Assembly: GCA_030647905.1 (NCBI GenBank)
Contig: JAUSJA010000002.1
Location: forward strand, 1-50,126
Direction: 5' to 3'
Source: Gemmatimonadaceae bacterium
GTDB taxonomy: Bacteria > Gemmatimonadota > Gemmatimonadetes > Gemmatimonadales > Gemmatimonadaceae
Length of the DNA stretch: 50,126 nucleotides
This document shows, one piece after another, positions 35,586 through 49,220 of this stretch. Numbering within the stretch: the stretch's first letter is position 1; each line of letters begins with the position of its first letter. The translations under genes were made by a program, and so were the position numbers. Below the pieces are notes generated by a model. It was not told the origin of the DNA. It did no database searches and saw nothing but the letters and a program-made list of their open reading frames with translations.

Positions 35586-36614
35586 ATGAGCCATAATGAC
35601 ACTCCTCGAAAGAGCGCTTCCGTCACAGCGGCGGGAACGCGCGGCAGCCCGGTGTCGGCGTTTCTGCGCCATCATTACCGTCACTTCAACGCCGCGACGC
35701 TGATTGACGCCGCCGATGCCTACTCCGCGCATCTCGACGGCGGCGGCAAGATGATGATGACCATCGCCGGCGCGATGTCCACCGCCGAGCTCGGCATCTC
35801 GCTCGCGGAGATGATCCGCCAGGGACGTATTCAGGCGATCACATGTACGGGAGCGAATCTCGAGGAGGACATCTTCAACCTCGTCGCTCACGATCATTAC
35901 GAGCGCGTGCCGCACTACCGCGACCTGACACCGCGTGACGAGCAGGATCTGCTCGATCGCCACATGAACCGCGTGACCGATACCTGCATCCCCGAGATGG
36001 AGGCGATGCGGCGCATCGAGAAGGCGGTGCTCGACGAGTGGATCGCCGCCGACAAGCGCGGCGGGCGTCTCTTTCCGCACGAGTTCATGTACCGCATCCT
36101 GAAGAACGGCTCGCTCGAAGGCAGCTATCAGATAGATCCGAAGAATTCGTGGATGATCGCCGCAGCCGAAAAGAACCTCCCGATGTTCGTTCCGGGGTGG
36201 GAGGACTCGACGCTCGGCAACATGTACGCTGGCCACTGCATTTCCGGCGACGTCAAGAACGTCCACACCGTCCGGACGGGAATCGAGTACATGATAGTGC
36301 TCGCGGACTGGTACACGAACAACTCCACCGACGGCACCGTCGGCTTCTTCCAGATCGGCGGCGGCATCGCCGGCGATTTCCCCATCTGCGTGGTGCCCAT
36401 GCTGCACCAGGATCTGCAGCGCAACAATGTTCCGGTGTGGGGATACTTCTGTCAGATCTCCGATTCTACGACGAGCTACGGATCCTACTCGGGCGCCGTG
36501 CCGAACGAGAAGATCACGTGGGGCAAGCTGGCGATGGACACGCCGAAGTTCGTCATCGAGAGCGACGCGAGCATCGTCGCGCCGCTCATGTTCGCACTGA
36601 TTCTGGGCTGGTAG
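35586..36614 (+). CDS. Deoxyhypusine synthase family protein
   Basis: There are 342 residues. It has the NAD-binding and active-site features of the family: MMTIAGAMSTAELG, ITCTGANLEEDIFNLVAHDH, GWEDSTLGNMYAGHCI, VGFFQIGGGIAGDFPICVVP and GSYSGAVPNEKITWGKLA with the catalytic Lys. In archaea and eukaryotes this enzyme adds aminobutyl from spermidine to eIF5A; in bacteria, which lack eIF5A, relatives make homospermidine or have unknown substrates. The bacterial 'deoxyhypusine synthase-like' group is therefore the safe call. No polyamine gene lies next to it. Confidence 0.9.
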   Translation: MSHNDTPRKSASVTAAGTRGSPVSAFLRHHYRHFNAATLIDAADAYSAHLDGGGKMMMTIAGAMSTAELGISLAEMIRQGRIQAITCTGANLEEDIFNLVAHDHYERVPHYRDLTPRDEQDLLDRHMNRVTDTCIPEMEAMRRIEKAVLDEWIAADKRGGRLFPHEFMYRILKNGSLEGSYQIDPKNSWMIAAAEKNLPMFVPGWEDSTLGNMYAGHCISGDVKNVHTVRTGIEYMIVLADWYTNNSTDGTVGFFQIGGGIAGDFPICVVPMLHQDLQRNNVPVWGYFCQISDSTTSYGSYSGAVPNEKITWGKLAMDTPKFVIESDASIVAPLMFALILGW

Positions 36615-37295: not shown

Positions 37296-38090
37296 TCAGC
37301 CGGCGATGCGGCCGACAAGGCGCAACAGGCCGTCGAGTATCGTAAGCGGGTGCGGTGGACACCCCGGTATCCACAAATCCACCGGAATCGATGGGGGAAT
37401 CCCGACGATCGCGGAGCTTCCTCGAAACGGTCCTCCGCTCACGGCACAGGCCCCAACAGCGACGACGATTCGCGGATCCGGGACGGCGGCGTAGGATCGC
37501 TCGAGCGCTTCGACCATGTTCGAGTTCACAACTCCGGTGATTACAATTCCGTCCGCATGGCGCGGAGACGCGACAAATTGCACGCCGAAGCGCGCCATGT
37601 CGAAAACGACGTTCGAGAGCGCGACCATTTCCGACTCACAGCCATTGCAACTCCCGGCGACGACGGAGCGCAGTCGAAGCGACCTGCCGAGGATTTGGCG
37701 CATTTTCTTATCGAGAGCGCGCGCGAGCTCCACTTCGCCGGTCGCAGTGACCAATCCCTCGCGCGCGCTCGTCGCCATCCGAAAGTCCCGCGTGTAGATC
37801 GTCCGGCATCCGTGGCTTTCGGACGCCTCCTCCGGCGAAAACAAACACGTTCCGAGATCGATCACGGGAAGACCCCGCGGTCCCTTGCGGGCCGCCCCGG
37901 ATGGGACTTGCGCGCAGAACTCATCCACGCGCGCGGCATTTCCCACGCAGCCGACATTCGGGCGCCCTCTGAACCGCTCAGGGAATGGCGTGTCCTCTGT
38001 GGGAAAGGGCGAGGTCTGTCCACGCTGCTCGACCCATGTTCGCAGGAACTCAAACACCGACGCCTCCGGTTCGCGACGCCGGGGCTTCAC
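37296..38090 (-). CDS. Hydrogenase-related small subunit (HyfI/NuoB-like) with a degenerate ferredoxin-like N-terminus
   Basis: There are 264 residues from GTG 38090. The C-terminal half is the NuoB/HyfI fold with all four proximal [4Fe-4S] ligands: GSCNGCE (Cys148, Cys151), VGACAVSGG (Cys215) and PGCPPHP (Cys244). The N-terminal 120 residues look like a worn HycF/HyfH ferredoxin domain (VIDLGTCLFSPEEASESHGC then RTIYTRDFRMATSAREGLV), where only scattered Cys (48, 59, 82, 95) remain, so it probably binds no cluster. It is the last gene of the operon, 32 bases after the large subunit. It transfers electrons to the modified large subunit at the cytoplasmic face of the membrane complex. Confidence 0.85.
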   Translation of the reverse strand: MKPRRREPEASVFEFLRTWVEQRGQTSPFPTEDTPFPERFRGRPNVGCVGNAARVDEFCAQVPSGAARKGPRGLPVIDLGTCLFSPEEASESHGCRTIYTRDFRMATSAREGLVTATGEVELARALDKKMRQILGRSLRLRSVVAGSCNGCESEMVALSNVVFDMARFGVQFVASPRHADGIVITGVVNSNMVEALERSYAAVPDPRIVVAVGACAVSGGPFRGSSAIVGIPPSIPVDLWIPGCPPHPLTILDGLLRLVGRIAG

Positions 38091-38122
38091 CTTGGCGCCG
38101 ACCGTGGCGATGGTCGGGACGG

Positions 38123-39634
38123 TCAGAGATCATGGCCGGCATATGACAGGTTGAAGCTCTTATTGCAGAGCGGAAAGTCAGAGATCTGGTTTCCGGGCAT
38201 CGCCATGGCGAGCGCCCCCCAGTTGTGAAACGATGGGTCGGTCACCTTGTGGCGACGGACGCCACCACGATCATCTGTGAGAAGCACGTGGGCGACTTCC
38301 CCACGCCACCCTTCTTCGAGCGAGACGACCAGTTCGCCGGGAGCAAGCGCGGCACACGGCGACCGAAGCTCACCCTTCGGCAATGCACGCACCTGCTCCG
38401 CGACGAAGTCCAGTGAGCGCTGAATCTCCAGCCACCGAACGAGCGCGCGCGCGTAGACGTCGCCCGCCCAGGCTCTCGCCACCGGAATCTGCGCGAAGCG
38501 GAACACCCCGTACGGATGATCGTGTCGCACGTCGAGCGCGACGTCGCAGCTTCGCGCGACCAGGCCGACATACCCGCGCGCGATGCAAACGTCCTTCGTG
38601 ACCACGCCCACACCTTCCAGGCGTGACTGCACGGATGCGGCTCCGAAAAACTGGCCAGCCACCTGGCGCAGGTCCTGGCCGAGCCGCCGGACACGCCGCC
38701 CGATCTCTTCACCCATCTCGTCCGGAATGTCAAACGTCACCCCACCCGGCCGAATGAGTCCGCGCCCGTAACGGTTGCCCGAGATCGTCATGAGCAGGTT
38801 CAGGCACTCCCCGCGCATTCTGCCGAAGTATGCAGCTGCAGGCTGGTATGCCACGTCGCCAGAGATCGCACCGAGATCCCCGATGTGATTCGCGAGCCGC
38901 TCCAACTCCAACGCGATGCCACGAATCGTTTGAGCGCGAGGACTCTTGCGGCTCCTGGCGAGCGCCTCGATTGCACCACAGTACGCACTGGCGTGCGCAA
39001 TGACCGAGTCGCCAGCGATCGACTCGGCGACGTAGATCGCGCGTGCCCGGTCCAACGTCTCCAGAAGACGTTCCACTCCCCGGTGCTGATATCCCAACAT
39101 GATCTCGAGTGAGAGAACCTCCTCGCCATGCGCCTGCATTCGGAAATGTCCAGGTTCGATGATGCCTGCGTGGACCGGTCCGACGGCCACTTCGTGGACC
39201 TCGTCTCCGGCGATCGTGGAGAACCGATATTCGGCGTGGCTACGCTCCTCGATGCGCCACGACGAAGGCGCGTGGTCGGCAGGATGGCGGCGCAGCGGCT
39301 TCAACGCGGGGTGCCCTTCGGGCGCTGCTGCACATTGCTCCGCGATCTCGCGTTCGAAAAGCGCCGCCTGGCGACAAGCGGCTCCCAGCGCGGGATAGTG
39401 TTGCCCGACGATCGCGCTCAGGACGGCGAGCTGCCCGCTCTCGTCGTGCGCCAACACGGCGATGAGCCGCAATCGGTCCTCGGCTTCGGGGACGCCAAAC
39501 AGGGACACGAGGCGCCATTGATCACCGATCGCCGTCGAGATCACGGTGGCGACTTCCGTCACTGGCAGCGTTGGAACGTCGGCGAGTCGGACGCTTCGCC
39601 GATTGCCGATTCGCGCACCAGGCAGGATCGTCAC
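38123..39634 (-). CDS. Hydrogenase-related large subunit (HyfG/NuoCD-like) lacking the [NiFe] cysteines
   Basis: There are 503 residues. The N-terminal 120 correspond to the NuoC/HyfG 30-kDa domain. The rest is the NuoD/HycE-type large subunit (VGPVHAGIIEPGHFRMQAHG, LGYQHRGVERLLE, ELERLANHIGDLGAISGDVA). Where group 4 hydrogenases have CGIC, this protein has AGDS (residues 207-210, in ESIAGDSVIAH). Near the C-terminus a single Cys490 (FPLCNKSFN) replaces the second CxxC. It therefore cannot bind a [NiFe] centre and should not be a hydrogenase. This is the hallmark of the energy-converting hydrogenase-related (Ehr) complexes. Its start overlaps the end of the HyfF-like gene (ATGA). Confidence 0.85.
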   Translation of the reverse strand: MTILPGARIGNRRSVRLADVPTLPVTEVATVISTAIGDQWRLVSLFGVPEAEDRLRLIAVLAHDESGQLAVLSAIVGQHYPALGAACRQAALFEREIAEQCAAAPEGHPALKPLRRHPADHAPSSWRIEERSHAEYRFSTIAGDEVHEVAVGPVHAGIIEPGHFRMQAHGEEVLSLEIMLGYQHRGVERLLETLDRARAIYVAESIAGDSVIAHASAYCGAIEALARSRKSPRAQTIRGIALELERLANHIGDLGAISGDVAYQPAAAYFGRMRGECLNLLMTISGNRYGRGLIRPGGVTFDIPDEMGEEIGRRVRRLGQDLRQVAGQFFGAASVQSRLEGVGVVTKDVCIARGYVGLVARSCDVALDVRHDHPYGVFRFAQIPVARAWAGDVYARALVRWLEIQRSLDFVAEQVRALPKGELRSPCAALAPGELVVSLEEGWRGEVAHVLLTDDRGGVRRHKVTDPSFHNWGALAMAMPGNQISDFPLCNKSFNLSYAGHDL

Positions 39635-41076
39635 GGCCTCATCCCGCCCAGCGATGCAGCGGCACGACCGATCGCTGCGCGCAACGGGGCCGGGATGTAC
39701 AAGCCGAGCAGAAGTACGATGCTCGCGAGAATCACCGGTCCCACCACGAATGAGGGTCGCTCCGCGCCGGACGACGACTCGTCAGCCGCGCCGGCGGGTT
39801 CACCATAGACGATGTCGATTATCATCCCCGCGATTCCCACAAAGATGATCGTGAGCATCAACACCGTCGCGGCGGCGACCCACGGATGATGCTCACGCAC
39901 GGCGCCGGTGATGATCGAGAACTCGCTGATAAAGAGTCCGAATGGCGGCGATCCGGTGACCGCGAACAGGCCGATCACCAACAGCCACGCCGACACAGGA
40001 CGCACGCGCAGCATGCCATGCATGTCGGCCACGACGGACGTCCCGGCGGCAAGCACCAGGTTCCCGACGGCCAGAAACAGCATGCCCTTGACGAGTCCGT
40101 TGTTGATCAGGTGAAGCACTGAGCCATACGCCCCTGCTCCACCGATCCCCAGACCGAGCACGAGAAGCCCCATGTGCTCGACGCTTGAATACGCGAGCAG
40201 TCGCTTGACGTCGGCCTGGCCGATGATGAACGCCGCGGCGACGAGCAGTGAGAAGAGGCCGGACGCGATCAGGAGTGGCCGCACAAAGTCCTGGAGACCG
40301 GCGGCCATCGCGACCTGAGTGAAACGCGCCAGACCCAGAAAGGCGCAGCTCGTGAGTGCCCCCGCCATCAGGCCGCCGACGAGACTCGGCGCCTCGCCGT
40401 ACGTATCGGGTTTCCAGGTATGGAGCGGAGCGAGTCCCATCTTGGTACCGAACCCGGCCAGCGCGAACACGAAGGATGCTCGCAACCACCACGGGTCCAG
40501 GCGGCTGGCGCCGCCAATCAGGTCCGGCAGCAGAAGCGCTCGCGAGCCGCCATCTACAGGCTGAGCTGTCGCCAGTAGAAACACCGCGAGCAGTGCGAGT
40601 GCTATTCCGACGGACGAGAGCACGAGGTACTTCCACACTGCTTCGAGCGAGCGCCGGTCGTGGCGCGCATAGATCAGCGGCGCAATGGCGAGCGTTGTGG
40701 ATTCCATCCCAACCCACAGCAGCGCCAAATGTTGACTTAGGGCGACCAGCGATGTGGCGGACAGGAACGCCAGGAGGCAGCTCACGAAGGCGCGCCCGCC
40801 GCGTGGAGTCTGGTCGCGGAGGTAGCCCACCGCGTAGTACGCCACGACGAGGAAAAGCACGCTCACGGTGCTGAGAACGACGAGGCCCAGTTCGTCGGCC
40901 ATTAACCAGCCGCCAGGCGCCCGGTCCGCCTGATGCACCCATAGCAGGCCGACGGCGCCGGTGTGTAGTGTCGCGATCGTGAGCAGCAACGCCGAGCGCG
41001 CTCGAGCCCCCTGAACCACATAGGCGAGCGCGCCGGCTGCGAGGGGGACCACCACAATCAGAAGTTCTATCAGCAC
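39631..41076 (-). CDS. HyfF-like Mrp-antiporter-type membrane subunit
   Basis: There are 481 residues and about 14 membrane helices. It belongs to the NuoL/M/N-Mrp family: LLWVGMESTTLAIAPLIYAR (conserved Glu), FGTKMGLAPLHTWKPDTYGE (Lys-His of the broken helix), DVKRLLAYSSVEHMGLLVLG. It should move protons or Na+ across the membrane in the hydrogenase-related complex. It is 7 bases from the HyfE-like gene and overlaps the large-subunit gene. Confidence 0.88.
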   Translation of the reverse strand: MLIELLIVVVPLAAGALAYVVQGARARSALLLTIATLHTGAVGLLWVHQADRAPGGWLMADELGLVVLSTVSVLFLVVAYYAVGYLRDQTPRGGRAFVSCLLAFLSATSLVALSQHLALLWVGMESTTLAIAPLIYARHDRRSLEAVWKYLVLSSVGIALALLAVFLLATAQPVDGGSRALLLPDLIGGASRLDPWWLRASFVFALAGFGTKMGLAPLHTWKPDTYGEAPSLVGGLMAGALTSCAFLGLARFTQVAMAAGLQDFVRPLLIASGLFSLLVAAAFIIGQADVKRLLAYSSVEHMGLLVLGLGIGGAGAYGSVLHLINNGLVKGMLFLAVGNLVLAAGTSVVADMHGMLRVRPVSAWLLVIGLFAVTGSPPFGLFISEFSIITGAVREHHPWVAAATVLMLTIIFVGIAGMIIDIVYGEPAGAADESSSGAERPSFVVGPVILASIVLLLGLYIPAPLRAAIGRAAASLGGMRP

Positions 41077-41083
41077 ATCCCTC

Positions 41084-41725
41084 TCATGATTCGCGCAGCT
41101 CGGTCAGATTCACCGCGGAGATCGAGTCAAACTCGCGGTTGATGTGGAACACGACGATGCCCATGATGAACACGCCGACGAAGACATCGAGCAGGACCCC
41201 CGCCTCGACCAGAAAAGGGACTCGGCGGGCGAGAGTGAGACCGAAGATGTAAACACCGTTCTCGAGCATCATGTAGCCGACCACCTGGATCACTGCCTTT
41301 GCGCGCGTGATGAGTATGACCATACCGATCATCACGGTCACGAGTGCCACAGGCACAACGAGGCTGCCGCGCGCCGAAACCGGCATCGTACTCGCGACGG
41401 CGAACGCCGCGCCAAGTGCAGCGGCGCCGAGAAGCATCGAACCCATGTAAGGCACGAGGGGCTCGACCTCACGCCGAATCGCGGCCTCCCGGATAGCCCA
41501 GCGAAGAAACCCGGGGAGCAGTATCGCTTTGACGATCACCGTGCCAATCGCGAGCGCGACCACATGCGTCGTGAGCTCGCCCTCCGTGACCAATGGAAGA
41601 AGTCCCAGAATCGCGCCCTGGAACGCGATCCAGCGAATGCAGGCGCTCAGGCGAGACGTGCCCAACACAGCGAAATCAGTCAGTACCACCAGGAGGAGCA
41701 GCAGCTGCAGCGACGAGTGCGTCAC
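41084..41725 (-). CDS. HyfE-like membrane subunit
   Basis: GTG 41725 gives 213 residues, the usual HyfE length; the open frame to 42142 is Arg-rich noise. There are about seven hydrophobic segments, including LVVPVALVTVMIGMVILITR, then AVIQVVGYMMLENGVYIFG, the NuoK-like motif with the conserved Glu in MLENG. The end is FIMGIVVFHINREFDS. The start overlaps the HyfC-like stop (GTGA), so translation is coupled. Confidence 0.83.
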   Translation of the reverse strand: MTHSSLQLLLLLVVLTDFAVLGTSRLSACIRWIAFQGAILGLLPLVTEGELTTHVVALAIGTVIVKAILLPGFLRWAIREAAIRREVEPLVPYMGSMLLGAAALGAAFAVASTMPVSARGSLVVPVALVTVMIGMVILITRAKAVIQVVGYMMLENGVYIFGLTLARRVPFLVEAGVLLDVFVGVFIMGIVVFHINREFDSISAVNLTELRES

Positions 41726-42648
41726 GCCGGGTTCCAGAGCACGAGGATGAGGCTGAACAGCGCGAGCGATGAGGCGCCGGCGAGGTACAACGGTACCTTC
41801 GGCAGCCGCAGTCGTGCCATCGTCGCCTCGACGATGCCGATACCGACTCCAACTGCGAGCAGCCCGCCCCCGAGCACGGCGACCGAGCCCGCGGCTGACA
41901 GATTCGCGCGAGGCACGAGCACGCTGACAACCATCGCGCCGAGAACAGCGAGCTTCAGCGCGCTTCCATACAGAATCAGCGCGAGGTCCGGGCCGCTGTG
42001 ATCGAGAACCATCACTTCGTGCACCATGGTCAGCTCGAGGTGTGTGGCCGGATCGTCCACCGGCACGCGGGCACATTCCGCGAGCAGCAACGCGAACAGG
42101 CAGGCGCTGATCATTACGAGTGCCGGAGCGTTTGCTGCCCAATGGCGCGCGAAAGGCACGCCCAGCATTCCAGACAGAGACAGCTCGTGCGTCACCACGC
42201 CAAGTGTCCCGAACGACAGGAACAGGCCGACTTCAACGAGGCTCGCGAAAGTGACCTCCCGGCTCGCGCCCATTCCCTCGAAGCTCGACCCGGTATCGAG
42301 CGCTGCCAGCACAAGAAAAAAGCGGCCAAGGCCGAGCACGTACGCAAACGCCACCCAATCGCCGCTGAATCGGATGAGTGACACACGGCCATCCAGCGGG
42401 ACGACCGTCGCCGCCAGAAGGGTCGTCGCCACCACCAGGACGGGCGCCAACCGGAAGATCCACGTCGTCGTTTCGCTGAACACCGCACCGCGCCGAACGA
42501 GCTTCCAGAGATCGAAGTACAGTTGCAGTGCCGGCGCTCCCTGGCGACCGGTAAGCGCCGACTTCGTCCGCGTCGCCACGCCAGCAACAGCAGGAGCGAG
42601 AAGCAATACCAGGATGAAGGCAAACGCCGCGGACGTCGTGATGTTCAC
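41722..42648 (-). CDS. HyfC/NuoH-like membrane anchor subunit
   Basis: GTG 42648 gives 308 residues and about eight helices, matching HyfC/HycD/NuoH: LFDLWKLVRR-type start (QLYFDLWKLVRRGAVFSETT), LDTGSSFEGMGASREVTFAS and ECARVPVDDPATHLELTMVH, the characteristic loop that joins the peripheral arm to the membrane. The longer frame to 42846 overlaps the HyfB-like gene and is rejected; the HyfB-like stop lies 7 bases before GTG 42648. Confidence 0.87.
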   Translation of the reverse strand: MNITTSAAFAFILVLLLAPAVAGVATRTKSALTGRQGAPALQLYFDLWKLVRRGAVFSETTTWIFRLAPVLVVATTLLAATVVPLDGRVSLIRFSGDWVAFAYVLGLGRFFLVLAALDTGSSFEGMGASREVTFASLVEVGLFLSFGTLGVVTHELSLSGMLGVPFARHWAANAPALVMISACLFALLLAECARVPVDDPATHLELTMVHEVMVLDHSGPDLALILYGSALKLAVLGAMVVSVLVPRANLSAAGSVAVLGGGLLAVGVGIGIVEATMARLRLPKVPLYLAGASSLALFSLILVLWNPA

Positions 42649-42655
42649 TCGGCGC

Positions 42656-44617
42656 TCACGGCGCAACAACCAGATAGGTGAGAAACGCCAGAACGGCGGC
42701 GACGACGTAAAGCAAATAAAAGTGCAACCGTCCATCCTGAATCGGACGCAGCCGAAGAGCTGATCTCCGCACGCGCGCCCACAATGGCGCGACAACGCGG
42801 TCGAGAATGAGATCGCGTGGCATGCTGTGGAACACGGTTGCACCACGATGTTCCTGCACGCCCGTCAGAGGTCCGAATACAGAGAGCAGCGGCGCGGCGA
42901 ACGACGATGCCGTATACTGCATTCGCGACGTCGTCGCTCCGTATCCGCAGCTCCAGGTGGCATCCAGCCGCACCGATCTGCGACGCAGCACGAACCGTCT
43001 TCCAGCCCAGATCACCACAACGACGAGTAAAAGACCCGTAGCAAAGACGGCGACGCTTTGCGCGGCGGGCGATACCTCAGCCCAGGCTGCGGCCGCTTGA
43101 CTTTGGGGCTGGCCGCCGATTGTCGCCCCAATGAAGAGAAACGGCCGGACGATCAATGCTGGCAGTAGCCCGATGGCGACACATATCGCAGCCAGCGCAA
43201 GCTGCGGGAGGAGAAACGCCGGGCCGACCTCGCGTGCCGCAAGCGGCCGGTCGCTCCTGGGGCGGCCGAGAAACACTACGCCGGCGGCCTTTGCGAAGCA
43301 GGCCAAGGCCAGACCACCAGCGAGCGCCAGTACCGGAGCGCCGAGCAGCGCGATCCGCAGCGCGCCCGGCGAATACCCGGCACGAAAGAGCCCCTGGTAG
43401 ACAAGCCACTCGCTTACGAAGCCGTTCAGCGGTGGCACGCCGATTATTGCGATGGAGCCGATCAGGAACGCCGCAAAGGTAATGGGCATGCGACGTGCGA
43501 TGCCTCCGAGCTCCTCCATGTTGCGAGTGCCCGTCATTCGGTACACGGCGCCTGCACTCATGAACAGGAGCGCCTTGAAGAGCGCGTGGTTCACCGTGTG
43601 GAGGACGGCAGCGCCATATCCAAGAATTGCCAGGATGGGGTGCCCGTATGCAGTCCCCAGCGCGCCGAGTCCCATGCCGATCAGGATGATGCCGATGTTT
43701 TCGACGCTGTGATACGCGAGAAGACGCTTGATGTCGTGCTGCGCGAGCGCCCACAGCACTCCAAGCACGGCAGACAAAGCGCCCAGCAAGAGGACGGTCC
43801 ACGCCCACCACGCGGGCGGCGGACCCGCAAGCATCACGACGCGAAGCAAGCCGTAGATACCCGTCTTGATGACGATACCCGACATGACCGCCGAAACGTG
43901 TGAGGGAGAGGCGGCGTGGGCGGAAGGCAACCAGAAATGCAGTGGCACAAAACCGGCCTTCACTCCAAAGCCCGCGAGCGCCAGAAGGAAGAGCGGTCCC
44001 CCGCCCCACATCAGCGTCGGTCGGGTAGCAGCAAGCGACGCGAACGACCAATCGGCCGTTCCTCGCGACCAGACCGCGAACATCACGAACAGCAAAAGCG
44101 TGCCGGTGTGGGTCGCGACGATGTAGATGAACCCTGCACGGCGCACCTGCGGCTGGTGATGGTCCGTCATGATGAGCAGGAACGAACTGATCGCCATCAT
44201 CTCCCACGCGCAGAGGAACAACATCACACTCTGCGCGGTGACTACGAGCGCGAGAACGACGACGAGCACGGCGTATGTCGTGTTTGCCTGTCGTGAAACG
44301 CTTGTGTTCGCACCGGCGCGCATGTCGGCAGCACCGTATACGGCATTGGCGGCCCCGACGACCAATACCGCGAGCAGAAACACGGCCGAAAGCGGGTCGA
44401 TGCCGATCACCCAGTCGCCCCCCGGAAGGCCCGAAGGCCAGCGCGTGGCCAGGCTGGTCGCGCCGCCGAGCACGCGAAAGGCAGGAACCGAAGCCAGGCT
44501 CGCCCCCGCGACAACGAACGTCGCGAATACTCGATCGCGCATCGCATCGCCGCGGACCACAAGGGCGGTGACAACGGCGGCCACGAGCATTCCGAGTCCG
44601 GCGAAGAACAGAATCAC
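42656..44617 (-). CDS. HyfB/NuoL-like Mrp-antiporter-type membrane subunit
   Basis: There are 653 residues and about 16 helices with family motifs LFLCAWEMMAISSFLLIMTD (Glu), FGVKAGFVPLHFWLPSAHAA, ALAQHDIKRLLAYHSVENIG and VNHALFKALLFMSAG. It is the largest proton- or Na+-translocating subunit of the complex. Its start overlaps the end of the upstream HTH/PTS-IIA gene by 4 bases (ATGA). The C-terminal extension after residue 480 includes an Arg-rich cytoplasmic loop. Confidence 0.9.
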   Translation of the reverse strand: MILFFAGLGMLVAAVVTALVVRGDAMRDRVFATFVVAGASLASVPAFRVLGGATSLATRWPSGLPGGDWVIGIDPLSAVFLLAVLVVGAANAVYGAADMRAGANTSVSRQANTTYAVLVVVLALVVTAQSVMLFLCAWEMMAISSFLLIMTDHHQPQVRRAGFIYIVATHTGTLLLFVMFAVWSRGTADWSFASLAATRPTLMWGGGPLFLLALAGFGVKAGFVPLHFWLPSAHAASPSHVSAVMSGIVIKTGIYGLLRVVMLAGPPPAWWAWTVLLLGALSAVLGVLWALAQHDIKRLLAYHSVENIGIILIGMGLGALGTAYGHPILAILGYGAAVLHTVNHALFKALLFMSAGAVYRMTGTRNMEELGGIARRMPITFAAFLIGSIAIIGVPPLNGFVSEWLVYQGLFRAGYSPGALRIALLGAPVLALAGGLALACFAKAAGVVFLGRPRSDRPLAAREVGPAFLLPQLALAAICVAIGLLPALIVRPFLFIGATIGGQPQSQAAAAWAEVSPAAQSVAVFATGLLLVVVVIWAGRRFVLRRRSVRLDATWSCGYGATTSRMQYTASSFAAPLLSVFGPLTGVQEHRGATVFHSMPRDLILDRVVAPLWARVRRSALRLRPIQDGRLHFYLLYVVAAVLAFLTYLVVAP

Positions 44618-45318
44618 GCCAGGGGCACCACTTTGAAGGATCCCGTGTTGCGGGTGCTTTCGACCAGCGCGACACGATCGAGGATCTCGTCGGCCGGTGC
44701 GCGATCTCGCAGCAGACCGCGGAGAGTATCGTCCCGGAGCGCAAATCCGAGTCGTGCGAGAATCGCCAGGTGCGCCGGCACCGTCGGGCTGACGACCATG
44801 AATAGCGCGTGCACGGGCCTGCCATCCATAGATCCGAATTCGATCGCGTGGCGGAGCAACCCGAGTGTAACGAACGGCTGTTCGACCTGCAGAACGATCG
44901 GGTTTCGCACGTGGGGAATCGCGATTCCGTCGCCGATGCCAGTGGAGCCCATGGCTTCACGCGCCTCGAGCACACTCAACAGGAATGCACGATCCTGCTC
45001 CGGCGCCAGCGGCAACCGTTCGACGAATTCGCCGAGCACCTCGGCCTTTGTGTTTCCTCCAATGTCGCTGAAGATTCCACCAGCGCGCAGGAGCTCGCTC
45101 AGCAATGGGACGGGGTCCGGCGAGCCCCGAGCCTGATCGAGCAGTTGCCGGGAAACCGGGACGCCATTTTCGACCGCCCACTCCCATAGCTCGACGGCAT
45201 TCATGTAGATCTGTTCATTCGCGTGGTGGGCGGGGAGCGCGCGCTGACTGATCCAACGCCTGATCGTAGCTTCGTTCACACCGAGATGGCGGGCGGCCTC
45301 ACGAACTGTCAGCTGCAT
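44614..45318 (-). CDS. Excisionase/MerR-type HTH fused to a PTS EIIA (fructose/nitrogen type) domain
   Basis: There are 234 residues. The N-terminus MQLTVREAARHLGVNEATIR then RWISQRALPAH is a winged-helix DNA-binding motif of the MerR/excisionase kind. From about residue 75 on is a PTS IIA-2 domain (LLSELLRAGGIFSDIGGNTK, REAMGSTGIGDGIAIPHVRN, with phospho-accepting His136; AHLAILARLGFALRD). It overlaps the HyfB-like gene by 4 bases, so it is the first gene of the hydrogenase-related operon. It presumably senses the phosphorylation state of the PTS (energy or carbon status) and regulates this operon or the complex itself. No other PTS gene is in the window. Confidence 0.87.
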   Translation of the reverse strand: MQLTVREAARHLGVNEATIRRWISQRALPAHHANEQIYMNAVELWEWAVENGVPVSRQLLDQARGSPDPVPLLSELLRAGGIFSDIGGNTKAEVLGEFVERLPLAPEQDRAFLLSVLEAREAMGSTGIGDGIAIPHVRNPIVLQVEQPFVTLGLLRHAIEFGSMDGRPVHALFMVVSPTVPAHLAILARLGFALRDDTLRGLLRDRAPADEILDRVALVESTRNTGSFKVVPLA

Positions 45319-45677
45319 TCGGTCTCGGGCGACGGCGTCGAAACTCCGATCTCCTCAAGCGCACTCAGTTCCCTGCCGGTCATTTCGCCCAGCCCTCGGT
45401 TGTAGCGGTGGTGTTCAGATGCGGTTTGCCCATATCCGCACTGTGCGAATCACCGTCCCTGGGATGCACGCGGCGCGAATGTCCTTCTGCATCGTCGCAA
45501 CGCGAGACGTTCGCGCCAACAATAGCACACTCTGTCGTCCGCTGCGAACTGCGCCGGCGAATGCGTTGTTGCGACAGGTCAACGCTCGCGACCAGCGCAC
45601 GGAGTACCCAGACCAACCGATGGGGCGATCGGGGCGCGGCGTCTCGGCGATGCCATCAATGGCCGATCCGAGCGGTC
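45319..45677. other. Intergenic stretch upstream of the hydrogenase-related operon
   Basis: About 360 bases with no gene I can support. On the minus strand a 24-codon frame (45309-45383, MTGRELSALEEIGVSTPSPE...) ends overlapping the start of the HTH/PTS-IIA gene and could act as a leader peptide or be chance. Frames across 45380-45616 are Arg/Ser-rich and inconsistent with neighbours. The promoter of the operon should be here, but no clear -35/-10 pair stands out. Confidence 0.3.
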
Positions 45678-45782
45678 ATGCCAGGCGCCAAAACACTTTG
45701 CGTGGGGGATGGCATCAATGATGCCCCGGTCATGATGGCCGCCACGGTCGGTGTGGCGGCCGCCCTTTTTTCCCAAAGGTGA
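45678..45782 (+). pseudogene. Scrap of a P-type metal ATPase
   Basis: The plus strand reads GAKTLCVGDGINDAPVMMAA then TVGVAAALFSQR before TGA at 45780. This is the GDGxNDxP hinge motif of the P-domain of Cu/Zn/Cd-type P1B ATPases, normally preceded by about 600 residues (actuator, DKTG phosphorylation site, nucleotide domain) and followed by two helices. None of that is present, so it is a fragment of about 30 residues left by deletion. Confidence 0.6.
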
Positions 45783-46498: not shown

Positions 46499-46699
46499 TC
46501 AGCGCGCGCCCTCATCTTCCTGACGTACCGCCAGATCGTTGACACAGGCCTGACGCAGCGGTCCCAGTTCCTGCTCGACCGCGTCGCGCGTCTTGTCGTC
46601 GAGTTCCGACCCAGGCGTCATGCCCTTCAGATGGGCTCGGGCCCGATCAATGTTGGTGATGATATCGTGCAGCCGTTCGTTGGGAACGTCAGAAGGCAT
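46499..46699 (-). pseudogene. HepT-like (HEPN, DUF86) toxin with its catalytic middle deleted
   Basis: ATG 46699 gives 66 residues instead of the usual 110-140. MPSDVPNERLHDIITNIDRA then RAHLKGMTPGSELDDKTRDA matches the N-terminal helices of HepT, and ELGPLRQACVNDL matches its C-terminal helix. The two are joined directly after DAVEQ. The region between, which carries the RNase motif Rx4-6H (RNRIVH-type in homologues), is missing without a frameshift. The product cannot be an active RNase. It overlaps the end of the MntA gene by 11 bases, the normal MNT-HEPN operon arrangement. Confidence 0.65.
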
Positions 46700-46988
46700 A
46701 CACCGCTTCCGCCTCTGCGCTCGGACGCACGTGAGGCCGCAGGCGGTCGCGTCGCGCAACATCGACGTCTCGTCCCACGATCTCTTCGAGGTCGGCCGCT
46801 ATTCCCGCGTACGCGAAGAAGTTGTCGGCGACATCCGGCGTGAGGTCCACGAACAGGTCCACATCGCTATCGGCTCGGTTCTCCGCTCGCACCACCGAAC
46901 CGAACACCGCGACGTGGACAACGCCCCGCTCTCGAAGTTCGACCTCGTGGGCGCGGAGTCTCGTGAGAATGTTCGTGAGCAGCGACAT
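46689..46988 (-). CDS. mntA: MntA-type nucleotidyltransferase (MNT antitoxin)
   Basis: There are 99 residues. The nucleotidyltransferase signature VHVAVFGSVVRAENRADSDV then DLFVDL (GSxxRxxxxxDSDxD) is complete, with a later acidic residue in DVDVARRDRL. In MNT-HEPN modules MntA inactivates HepT by adenylylating it. Here the partner lacks its catalytic part, so MntA may be a leftover antitoxin. Confidence 0.85.
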   Translation of the reverse strand: MSLLTNILTRLRAHEVELRERGVVHVAVFGSVVRAENRADSDVDLFVDLTPDVADNFFAYAGIAADLEEIVGRDVDVARRDRLRPHVRPSAEAEAVYAF

Positions 46989-47392: not shown

Positions 47393-48421
47393 GTGGCCGA
47401 CTCACGTCTCTCCACAACATCCACGCAGGACCTCCGGGATCTCGGCTTCGGCTCCGTCGTCGGCGGAGCCAACGAGAAGCGGCTGCTCAACCGCGACGGA
47501 TCGTTCAACCCGCGGCGCGAAGGACTGCGCTTCCTGGCGGGACGCAGCGCGTACCACTTCTTCCTCAACATCTCCTGGAAGAAATTCTTCGCCACCGTCG
47601 CAGGCGGATACTTCCTCGCCAACGTCATCTTCGCACTGGCGTACCTCGCCTGCGGGCCGAACGCGATCGAAGGACAGGACCCGAGGTTTTTCGGAGGAGA
47701 GTTCGGCCGCGCATTCTTCTTCAGCGTCGAAACGATCGGCACGATCGGATACGGGAACATCTACCCCACAGGTGTTGCGGCCAACCTGATCGTCACGATC
47801 GAGTCGCTCACCGGCCTCCTCATGCTCGCCCTCGGCACGGGAATCCTCTTCGCCCGATTCTCGCGCCCCACGGCGGCGATCGTGTTCAGCGAGCGCGCTG
47901 TCGTAACTGGATACCGCGACCAGACGGGCTTCATGTTCCGACTTACCAACGCCCGCAAAAATCAGCTCATCGAGCTCGAGGCGAAGGTGCTCTTCAGCAG
48001 GATGGACGGCGCGTCACGACGGTACGACCAGCTCACGCTCGAGCGCACCCGCCTCGTCTTCTTCCCGCTCAGCTGGACAATCGTCCACCCGATCAACGAG
48101 AAGAGCCCGATGTGGGGCCTCACCGATACTGACCTCGCGGACACAGACGCCGAGTTCCTCGTGCTCCTCTCGGGCATAGATGAGACCTTCTCGCAGATGG
48201 TGCACGCGCGCACATCCTACAAGCCGCACGAGATCGTGTTCGGCGAGCGCTTCGTCAACATCTACAAGCCGGTGCGCGCCGACGGCACAGTCGCCATTGA
48301 CGTGCGCAAGCTGGGCCACACGGAACCGGCCCCCGAGGAATGGTCCGCGACACGCACCTGGCACGACACGGGACACTTCAGGGGGTATGCGCCCCCGCGC
48401 CCGGGACCGCCGAAGAGCTAG
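47393..48421 (+). CDS. KirBac-type inward-rectifier potassium channel
   Basis: There are 342 residues from GTG 47393. Features: slide-helix region, TM1 (FFATVAGGYFLANVIFALAY), pore helix and K+ filter SVETIGTIGYGNIYPTG (TIGYG), TM2 (NLIVTIESLTGLLMLALGTG then ILFARFSRP). The large cytoplasmic Ig-like C-domain has Kir signatures (FMFRLTNARKNQLIELEAKV, SWTIVHPINEKSPMWGLTD, TSYKPHEIVFGERFVNIY). It should be a tetramer gating K+ flux. It is convergent with the TauE/SafE gene. Confidence 0.93.
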   Translation: MADSRLSTTSTQDLRDLGFGSVVGGANEKRLLNRDGSFNPRREGLRFLAGRSAYHFFLNISWKKFFATVAGGYFLANVIFALAYLACGPNAIEGQDPRFFGGEFGRAFFFSVETIGTIGYGNIYPTGVAANLIVTIESLTGLLMLALGTGILFARFSRPTAAIVFSERAVVTGYRDQTGFMFRLTNARKNQLIELEAKVLFSRMDGASRRYDQLTLERTRLVFFPLSWTIVHPINEKSPMWGLTDTDLADTDAEFLVLLSGIDETFSQMVHARTSYKPHEIVFGERFVNIYKPVRADGTVAIDVRKLGHTEPAPEEWSATRTWHDTGHFRGYAPPRPGPPKS

Positions 48422-48458: not shown

Positions 48459-49220
48459 TCATCGCCTGTAAAGTACATAAAGCGAAACGCCGATCAGGAG
48501 GACTCCGAAAACCTGGCGCAGGCGGCGTTGCGGAACCCTCTTGCTGAGAAGCGTCCCCGTCATGCTTCCGACTGCCGCGACCGCCGTGAACCACGCCACG
48601 AGAGACCAGTCCACGGGCACTGTGCCCGCGTAGCCGAGGAATCCGCTCAGGGCGTTCATCGCGATCACGAGCAGTGACGTCCCGATGGCGAGGCGCATCG
48701 GAAGTTTCGCGACGAGCACCAGCGCCGGGACGATGAGAAATCCGCCGCCGACGCCGATCAGTCCGGTGAGGAGTCCGACACCGATTCCCTGGAGCGCGAG
48801 CAGGACGTAAGTGCGCCGGTCGCCGCTGAACTCATAGTCCACAATTTCCGGCGTGGCGGATTTTCGAAAAGTCCCGCGAAGCATCATCACAGATCCGGCG
48901 AGGCCGACAACCGCGAACAATACGAGCTGCGCCTCCCCGGGGACGTGCTTCGCCAGCCGCGCGCCGGCATATGCGGCAATCACAGCGAACGGCCCGAACA
49001 CCATCGCGACTTTCGACACGACAGTCCGCTGCCTCACATGCGACAGGAACCCAATGAAAGCGACCAGCCCCACTACGCAGAGGCTGGTCGCAATCGCCGG
49101 TTTGACCGGCACATGAAGCCCGTATATCAGGATCGGCACCGTGAGCACCGACCCACCCCCGCCGAGCAGGCCGAGGACGAACCCGACGAGGAGCGCGAGC
49201 CCCGCGCCGAGCGCGGTCAT
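48459..49220 (-). CDS. TauE/SafE family membrane permease
   Basis: There are 253 residues and about eight helices in two inverted halves, each beginning with the family motif: GFVLGLLGGGGSVLTVPILI and GLLTGLIGVGGGFLIVPALV. Members export sulfite, sulfoacetate or other organosulfonates, or act with sulfur chemistry; the substrate here is unknown. A link to the persulfide dioxygenase at 9.3 kb is possible but they are far apart. Confidence 0.9.
   Translation of the reverse strand: MTALGAGLALLVGFVLGLLGGGGSVLTVPILIYGLHVPVKPAIATSLCVVGLVAFIGFLSHVRQRTVVSKVAMVFGPFAVIAAYAGARLAKHVPGEAQLVLFAVVGLAGSVMMLRGTFRKSATPEIVDYEFSGDRRTYVLLALQGIGVGLLTGLIGVGGGFLIVPALVLVAKLPMRLAIGTSLLVIAMNALSGFLGYAGTVPVDWSLVAWFTAVAAVGSMTGTLLSKRVPQRRLRQVFGVLLIGVSLYVLYRR

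Follow-up and report, generated by a model that had tools for sequence, protein, structure and literature searches.

What can a hydrogenase-like membrane complex do once its [NiFe] site and the ferredoxin clusters leading to that site are both gone? The question is raised by a locus in a 50,126-nucleotide stretch of DNA (hereafter the window) from Gemmatimonadaceae bacterium (GenBank assembly GCA_030647905.1, contig JAUSJA010000002.1, positions 1 to 50,126 of the forward strand). Seven minus-strand genes, all with open frames, run there from 45318 down to 37296, and six of them encode the subunits of what we identify by sequence as an energy-converting-hydrogenase-related (Ech-hydrogenase-related; Ehr) complex. 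Ehr is described as being of unknown function in the available parts of PMC6349859, PMC10284858, PMC12342949, PMC10432482 and PMC7894505. In the window and part of its relatives, the ferredoxin part of the electron path has been lost from a complex that retains its large-subunit pocket and its ion-channel residues.

Loss of the ferredoxin clusters from the small subunit

The initial annotation had called the small subunit NuoB-like, which its match to PF01058 bears out for one part of the protein and which passes over the other: the N-terminal ~115 residues match the N-terminal domain of intact relatives (profile search, E-value 7e-40), and in those relatives this domain matches HyfH/HycF (profile search, E-value 1.6e-25). 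Using Pfam, we detected Fer4 in the small subunits of L063, L045, L107 and L125, and no Fer4 match in those of the window, L042 and L020 (L, G and C numbers designate loci, genomes and contigs, respectively). By these matches the window small subunit is a HyfH-HyfI fusion in which both ferredoxin [4Fe-4S] sites have been lost. At the place of the inner cluster, all 19 examined members of the window's clade carry the motif F[SA]PEE; fixation of this kind is unlike free decay and suggests that the lost site has been fixed as something else. The AlphaFold model of the small subunit (mean predicted local distance difference test score, pLDDT, 89) was matched by Foldseek to HycG (best match) and to MbhJ. 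No second HyfH-like match was found in the window, and no oxidoreductase or ferredoxin gene in its operon. The electron donor of the complex had been annotated as unknown, a statement that is too mild for the window's clade, whose ferredoxin wire itself is gone.

Census of Fe-S clusters across relatives

The census comprised 92 type-1 Ehr rows with a readable small subunit, the window included. We discarded L130 (frameshift), L034 (masked), L006, L067 and L131 (contig ends), L127 (short N terminus), L087, L099 and L109 (no small subunit in the locus) as well as the duplicates L056-L060, and left type-2 Ehr and hydrogenases out of the small-subunit census. Cys residues were assigned to the inner or the outer cluster according to the pattern that we take to hold in 2[4Fe-4S] ferredoxins.

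Both ferredoxin clusters were lost and the proximal cluster retained in 19 of the 92 rows, among them the window; the outer ferredoxin cluster was lost in 9 and the inner one in 2. All clusters were lost in one row (L020), and the proximal cluster was fully lost with the ferredoxin retained in two (L107 and L197). Three more rows with a retained ferredoxin, L125, L135 and L069, were down to 1, 2 and 3 proximal Cys respectively, and a total of five rows had 2-4 proximal ligands gone. As aligned, the ligand losses appear coherent by cluster: the inner set is broken and the outer one complete in L042 and L061, and the outer set is gone and the inner one complete in L112 and L120. Counting a cut at either the inner ferredoxin or the proximal cluster, the wire was interrupted in 26 of the 92 rows, which requires six changes by parsimony on the large-subunit tree; the fewest changes for the individual clusters on this tree were 10 (outer), 3 (inner) and 4 (proximal). 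In the GCPP motif, the proximal Cys gave way to Trp in L107, L125, L135 and L197 and to Phe in L020, as if the cluster cavity had been filled.

The proximal losses were then considered in their genomic setting. L197 lies on a 5.96 Mb contig of a 6.0 Mb genome, and an assembly error is unlikely for this locus because of the size of that contig; apart from its proximal loss, L107 has the whole operon (EIIA, EIIA, B, B, C, E, F, G, I). Six genomes were searched for another full-length Ehr small subunit: G283 (L020), G298 (L107) and G299 (L125) showed none, and G300 (L135) and G406 (L197) each carry a type-2 Ehr whose proximal ligands are intact. We also looked for proximal losses with a DNA pattern encoding PGWPPHP, which covers the Trp variant alone and misses other replacements. 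This yielded 10 places in 387 genomes (phylum of L135), 18 in 392 (phylum of L107) and 5 in ten genomes, with three places shared between these sets; after translation, the Ehr loci among them were L107, L125, L135 and the new L176 (identical with L197), the other 27 of the 31 loci being chance matches in other frames. In a further query of 199 genomes of the phylum with the L020 small subunit, ligands were scored for matches that belong to the census. Our searches of open PubMed Central papers showed no report of Fe-S cluster loss in Ehr.

A conserved predicted pocket in place of the [NiFe] site

We aligned the large subunit with E. coli HyfG, HycE and NuoCD, the NuoD of the host genome and the Cys-bearing L202 (CGVC, CYSC). 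None of the four [NiFe] ligand positions is a Cys in the window: A207 and S210 stand at the first pair, S497 and G500 at the second, so that the annotated AGDS in place of CGIC was recovered. Over the 92 type-1 rows the first ligand column reads A (85 rows), S (4) or C (3), and Cys does not occur in the other three columns; since the same replacement motifs recur across these rows, the missing Cys are not a sequencing slip. The single Cys that had been placed at the C-terminal site is C490, which does not fall in a ligand column and is replaced by I, N or S in 5 of the 92 relatives, and this part of the annotation is corrected. G208 and I159 stand at the positions of a Tyr and a His of NuoD that we take to be quinone-site residues.

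By alignment with the [NiFe]-site motifs, we labelled 15 residues as the pocket: G208, D209, H214, S485, D486, F487, P488, N491, K492, S493, F494, S497, Y498, G500 and D502. These conserved residues, with their SDFPxxNKSFxxSYxGxD tail, are predicted to form a pocket that lacks metal-ligand Cys. The full set was present in 89 of the 92 rows, distributed as 56/56 wired rows, 21/23 with inner-cluster loss, 7/8 with outer-cluster loss, 4/4 with proximal loss and 1/1 with a single change (for this count the bin of 23 includes L086 and L127, and L197 is in none of the bins). The large-subunit AlphaFold model has a mean pLDDT of 91, with low confidence at the tail (499-503) and in the loop 154-159, and its best Foldseek match was E. 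coli HycE (7z0s_E; template modelling score 0.88). Both subunit models are confident overall and confirm the expected folds.

Channel residues and selection

Residues of the putative ion channels are almost invariably kept in the antiporter-type and NuoH-like subunits, including in wire-cut loci. In NuoM numbering, E144, K234, K265 and H348 of the HyfB-like subunit are conserved in 83 of 83 sequences and E407 in 82 of 83; the HyfF-like subunit has the channel E144 in 96/98 and K234 in 98/98. The NuoH-like subunit conserves E157, D213, E220 and R291 in 92/92 and has His at the position of NuoH E218, likewise in 92/92. Glu36 and Glu72 of NuoK are absent from the HyfE-like subunit. In L107, L125, L135 and L020 the channel residues are retained wherever the gene is present, with the exception of one His to Gln change in the HyfF of L135.

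We estimated ratios of nonsynonymous to synonymous substitution rates (dN/dS), from which subunit B was excluded for several pairs and for the window compared with L002 (paralogues or partial genes). Within the window's genus (L031-L033), dN/dS was 0.05-0.19 for the six genes other than the small subunit; for genes C, E, F, G and I of L125 and L135, both damaged at the proximal site, the pairwise ratio was 0.10-0.16. The large-subunit pocket and the proton-channel residues are under purifying selection.

Phylogenetic placement

We built a large-subunit tree of 114 rows with a quick IQ-TREE search and NuoD as the outgroup. The window falls inside a clade of 101 Ehr rows (Shimodaira-Hasegawa-like approximate likelihood ratio test, SH-aLRT, 100) which includes Geobacter argillaceus and Geomonas, with the CGIC-bearing group-4 hydrogenases and NuoD outside. 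This agrees with the proposed membership in Ehr, and the two observations named in advance as speaking against it, a grouping with true hydrogenases and the presence of Cys motifs, did not arise; on this evidence we assign the window complex to Ehr. Within the clade, the window sits in a 20-row subgroup (support 99) made up of its own phylum and one Eisenbacteria member. Next to the Ehr clade comes a second Ehr type (L097b and L197p8054; support 88), followed by L202, a hydrogenase with the ligand Cys, encoded in a genome that belongs to the same family as the window (support 100 for 104 rows). Long terminal branches occur in several places, and IQ-TREE issued a warning that long branches join at the outgroup; the deep order is therefore less secure than the Ehr clade itself. 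Ehr is widespread: we counted at least 579 relatives of the window's type in a collection of species-level genomes, and the closest named ones among the matches listed are Gemmatimonadaceae and Gemmatimonadetes metagenome-assembled genomes (MAGs).

L202 (G112, contig C236), a group-4 hydrogenase, retains all four [NiFe] Cys and yet has an Ehr-like tail, DFPLVNKSFELCYSC; it may represent a link between hydrogenases and Ehr. Further loci were recorded. L097 and L197 carry tandem type-1 and type-2 Ehr gene sets, the type-2 set of L197 being inserted between the type-1 F and G genes. In L109 (9001-12491), an Ehr locus of Desulfuromonadales, a sensor-like frame follows the large subunit, and no small subunit was found there. 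L243 (420-482, on its own contig C8) preserves a brief remnant of the C-terminal end of an Ehr small subunit, close to an apparent integrase frame.

Possible modes of action

The reading that we tentatively put first, without placing it beyond an even chance, is that the window Ehr is an ion-translocating complex whose core reaction has no need for ferredoxin-fed electrons and possibly for none at all. The pocket would perform a reaction or a ligand-binding step, and this step would be coupled mechanically, in the manner of complex I, to ion flow across both antiporter subunits and the NuoH-like one. It would proceed independently of electrons passing through the ferredoxin wire, most likely with no net electron transfer, and the complex would use or exchange ion gradients as do Mrp or DAB, non-redox relatives of complex I. 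A function that is perhaps electron-free is suggested by the other Ehr members that have no proximal ligands. If this reading is right, Ehr would be a machine with the complex I fold and without redox chemistry, which would help to tell ion pumping and electron transfer apart in complex I itself. In any case the wire-cut lineages that keep pocket and channels are natural mutants, and make the need of Ehr for electrons directly testable.

Several observations weigh against this reading. The four proximal Cys are retained in the window and present in 86 of the 92 rows, which implies that the proximal cluster is usually under selection and that another donor could feed the pocket. Every cluster is retained in 56 of the 92 rows, an indication that most of the family does redox work. 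Sampling is uneven, the window's own phylum contributing 18 of the 26 cut rows, and the cluster-free L020 is represented by one MAG contig, 4,484 bases long. In the window's genus, selection on the small subunit itself is weaker (dN/dS 0.24-0.34). Finally, the Ehr of Geobacter sulfurreducens is more abundant on formate, as stated in the available part of PMC7894505.

An alternative is a redox Ehr with a different donor, which we regard as a real possibility: a soluble donor would reach the proximal cluster directly, the ferredoxin domain would be free to decay, and the pocket would oxidise or reduce a substrate and thereby drive ion pumping. The intact proximal ligands, the fully wired rows and the increase of Geobacter Ehr on formate all favour such a donor, as do three Omnitrophota loci (L066, L070 and L092) in which the ferredoxin domain is shortened and the proximal site spared. 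Yet the pocket is kept where proximal ligands are gone (L020, L107 and L197) or damaged (L125 and L135), no oxidoreductase or ferredoxin gene lies in the window's operon, the window shows no second HyfH-like match, and G208 and I159 stand where NuoD has its quinone Tyr and His.

An extension of the preferred, electron-independent reading to the whole Ehr family is rather unlikely in our view. It would hold that the common reaction is non-redox, that the replaced pocket acts, coupled to ion transport, on a substrate or ligand of a non-redox kind, and that the Fe-S wire is optional and has been cut at differing points (outer ferredoxin, inner ferredoxin or proximal cluster), down to cluster-free forms such as G283.

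Ehr may instead be ancestrally redox, with a division of labour in which wire-cut lineages have lost catalysis and persist as a cation/proton antiporter or regulated ion leak, the arm serving as a scaffold or as a sensor read by EIIA. The conserved channel residues, the presence of EIIA in most operons and the relaxed small subunit of the window's genus fit this proposal; a mere scaffold, however, needs no 15 pocket residues, which are nevertheless retained in 21 of 23 rows of the inner-loss bin and in 4 of 4 proximal-lost rows, and we consider it improbable. A decaying pseudo-operon, to which the loss of two ferredoxin clusters and the raised dN/dS of the small subunit could be attributed, is very improbable given the seven open frames, the low dN/dS of the six other genes and the fixation of the FSPEE-type motif in 19 of 19 members. 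That the locus encodes a genuine group-4 [NiFe] hydrogenase, either obscured by sequencing errors or built around an unusual metal site, a reading prompted by the hyf/hyc fold and gene order and by the hyp genes in the genome, has next to no probability, being refuted by the alignment (none of four ligands, with identical substitutions family-wide), the large-subunit tree and the location of HypD on one contig with a separate PF00374 hydrogenase.

Comparison with known systems

The window complex resembles the Geobacter Ehr (EhrA, EhrC, EhrL, EhrS and others), whose gene list is given in PMC7894505 and to whose organism G. argillaceus and Geomonas are related: the subunit sets are similar, both lack [NiFe] ligands, and the large subunits fall in one clade. 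Unlike the Geobacter complex, the window lineage has lost both small-subunit ferredoxin clusters. The available part of PMC7894505 does not name the HTH-EIIA gene (see below) among the Geobacter subunits, yet G. argillaceus (L086) has one beside its operon. A link between formate dehydrogenase and Ehr was suggested by the authors of a study of Margulisbacteria (PMC6349859, available part).

With hydrogenase 4 and formate hydrogenlyase (Hyf, Hyc) the window shares the gene order B-C-E-F-G-(H)I and the folds of the large and small subunits; it differs in having no [NiFe] ligands, HyfA, HyfD, separate HyfH or C-terminal extension in its operon, HyfH being fused to HyfI and apparently decayed. With respiratory complex I it shares NuoB-, C/D-, H- and L/M/N-type subunits and the conserved channel Glu and Lys, whereas the N module and NuoI are absent from the Ehr operon, as are the quinone Tyr/His and, in the HyfE-like subunit, Glu36 and Glu72 of NuoK. 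Mrp antiporters are non-redox relatives of complex I, and like them and DAB (DabA-DabB) the window has a NuoL-like subunit of the proton-conducting type, which Mrp uses without redox chemistry. DAB2 does so as well, its complex-I-like subunit serving non-redox chemistry driven by the proton motive force (PMC13144422, available part); we take DAB2 as an analogy, and kinship of the whole complex is not implied. No DabA or beta-carbonic-anhydrase-like protein is encoded in the window operon (the operon only, as the genome was not searched for DabA), and in contrast to DAB and Mrp the window retains a hydrogenase-like arm with one Fe-S site.

Gene layout, regulator and host genome

The features are listed in Table 1. 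Frames and family matches confirmed six Ehr subunits on the minus strand where they had been annotated, and all of them except the HyfE-like one matched the expected families above the Pfam cut-off. The latter reached 18.2 bits for PF00420 (cut-off 26.1), and its NCBIfam match to NF008556 was likewise below cut-off. The description as six overlapping genes holds in part: there is a seventh gene, EIIA, three junctions (EIIA/B, C/E and F/G) have 4-base overlaps, and the remaining three are gaps of 7, 7 and 32 bases, sizes that depend on the GTG starts chosen for HyfC and HyfE. With junctions this tight, the seven genes likely form one operon.

Table 1. Features of the Ehr locus, in window coordinates
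Feature	Coordinates	Strand	Basis
HTH_17 + PTS_EIIA_2 regulator, first gene, 234 aa	44614..45318	-	Pfam; active-site His136 in AIPH
HyfB-like antiporter subunit, 653 aa	42656..44617	-	PF00361; NF005086, 568 bits
NuoH/HyfC-like subunit	41722..42648	-	PF00146; frame open to 42846, GTG start at 42648 chosen by us
HyfE-like subunit	41084..41725	-	NF008556, E-value 1e-20; GTG start at 41725 chosen by us
HyfF-like antiporter subunit, 481 aa	39631..41076	-	PF00361; NF005044, 314 bits
Large subunit, fused NuoC-NuoD, EhrL-like, 503 aa	38123..39634	-	PF00346; AlphaFold, Foldseek, tree
AGDS, residues 207-210, at the place of CGIC	39005..39016	-	Alignment with HyfG, HycE and L202
C-terminal motif of the predicted pocket, SDFPLCNKSFNLSYAGHDL, residues 485-503, replacing DPCxxC and tail	38126..38182	-	Alignment
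Small subunit, HyfH-HyfI fusion, EhrS-like, 264 aa	37296..38090	-	PF01058; AlphaFold; Foldseek
Apparently decayed HyfH-type ferredoxin domain, without a complete cluster ligand set	37746..38057	-	Profile matches
FSPEE (residues 84-88), motif fixed where the inner cluster was lost	37827..37841	-	F[SA]PEE in 19/19
Proximal [4Fe-4S] ligands C148, C151, C215 and C244, intact in the window	37359..37649	-	Alignment

The product of the first gene combines a helix-turn-helix (HTH) domain with EIIA. All 50 aligned sequences keep its phospho-acceptor His136. An HTH-EIIA gene, sometimes twice, is present in 48 of the 56 named loci (from the range L061-L135) that extend far enough upstream to show it, often accompanied by a doubled HyfB-like gene. 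The HPr and EI genes of the host genome adjoin each other on contig C8. Phosphorylated through this EI and HPr, the HTH-EIIA protein may set the expression or the activity of Ehr, both the phosphorylation and its effect being presumed here. Our searches of open PubMed Central papers showed no report of an HTH-EIIA partner of Ehr; conserved as it is, this partner offers a handle on when Ehr is used.

The host genome (3.1 Mb, 98.6% complete, 37 contigs) carries the window on contig C2 and the NuoD of complex I separately on C37. An absence of hyp maturation genes had been proposed as a check on the complex; this test is unusable, because the genome has HypD and, elsewhere than in the Ehr locus, a true hydrogenase (HypD and a full-length PF00374 [NiFe] hydrogenase, both on contig C25).

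Neighbourhood of Ehr operons

We clustered the frames flanking 93 loci and found no recurring partner oxidoreductase among the 25 largest flank families. Response regulators occurred in 15 loci (a generic family) and SulP in 7; several flank families were discarded as out-of-frame echoes in GC-rich DNA. A SulP-type anion transporter stands beside the Ehr operon in L031, L032, L033, L036, L092 (1800-3473) and L124, covering three phyla, and a more distant SulP lying far from the operon in L101 looks like chance. Clear members of this SulP subfamily (at least 52% identity) were found in 7 of 25 Ehr genomes of the phylum, near Ehr in 4 of them, and the window's genome gave no match; given these counts, a bicarbonate or sulfate link through SulP is a weak lead only.

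Around the window operon, positions 45408-45782 (+) match part of a heavy-metal P-type ATPase, namely its GDGINDAP region only, and are apparently a relic. An MntA-like nucleotidyltransferase antitoxin is suggested at 46499-46988 (-) by a match to NF047752 (38.7 bits against a cut-off of 60); a second small frame adjoins it, and the two are perhaps a toxin-antitoxin pair. Also close to the Ehr operon lie an inward-rectifier-type K+ channel (47393-48421, +) and a TauE/SafE exporter (48459-49220, -). On the other side of the operon, a gene at 35586-36614 (+) resembles deoxyhypusine/homospermidine synthases, with a best match to NF001980 of 114 bits, far below the cut-off.

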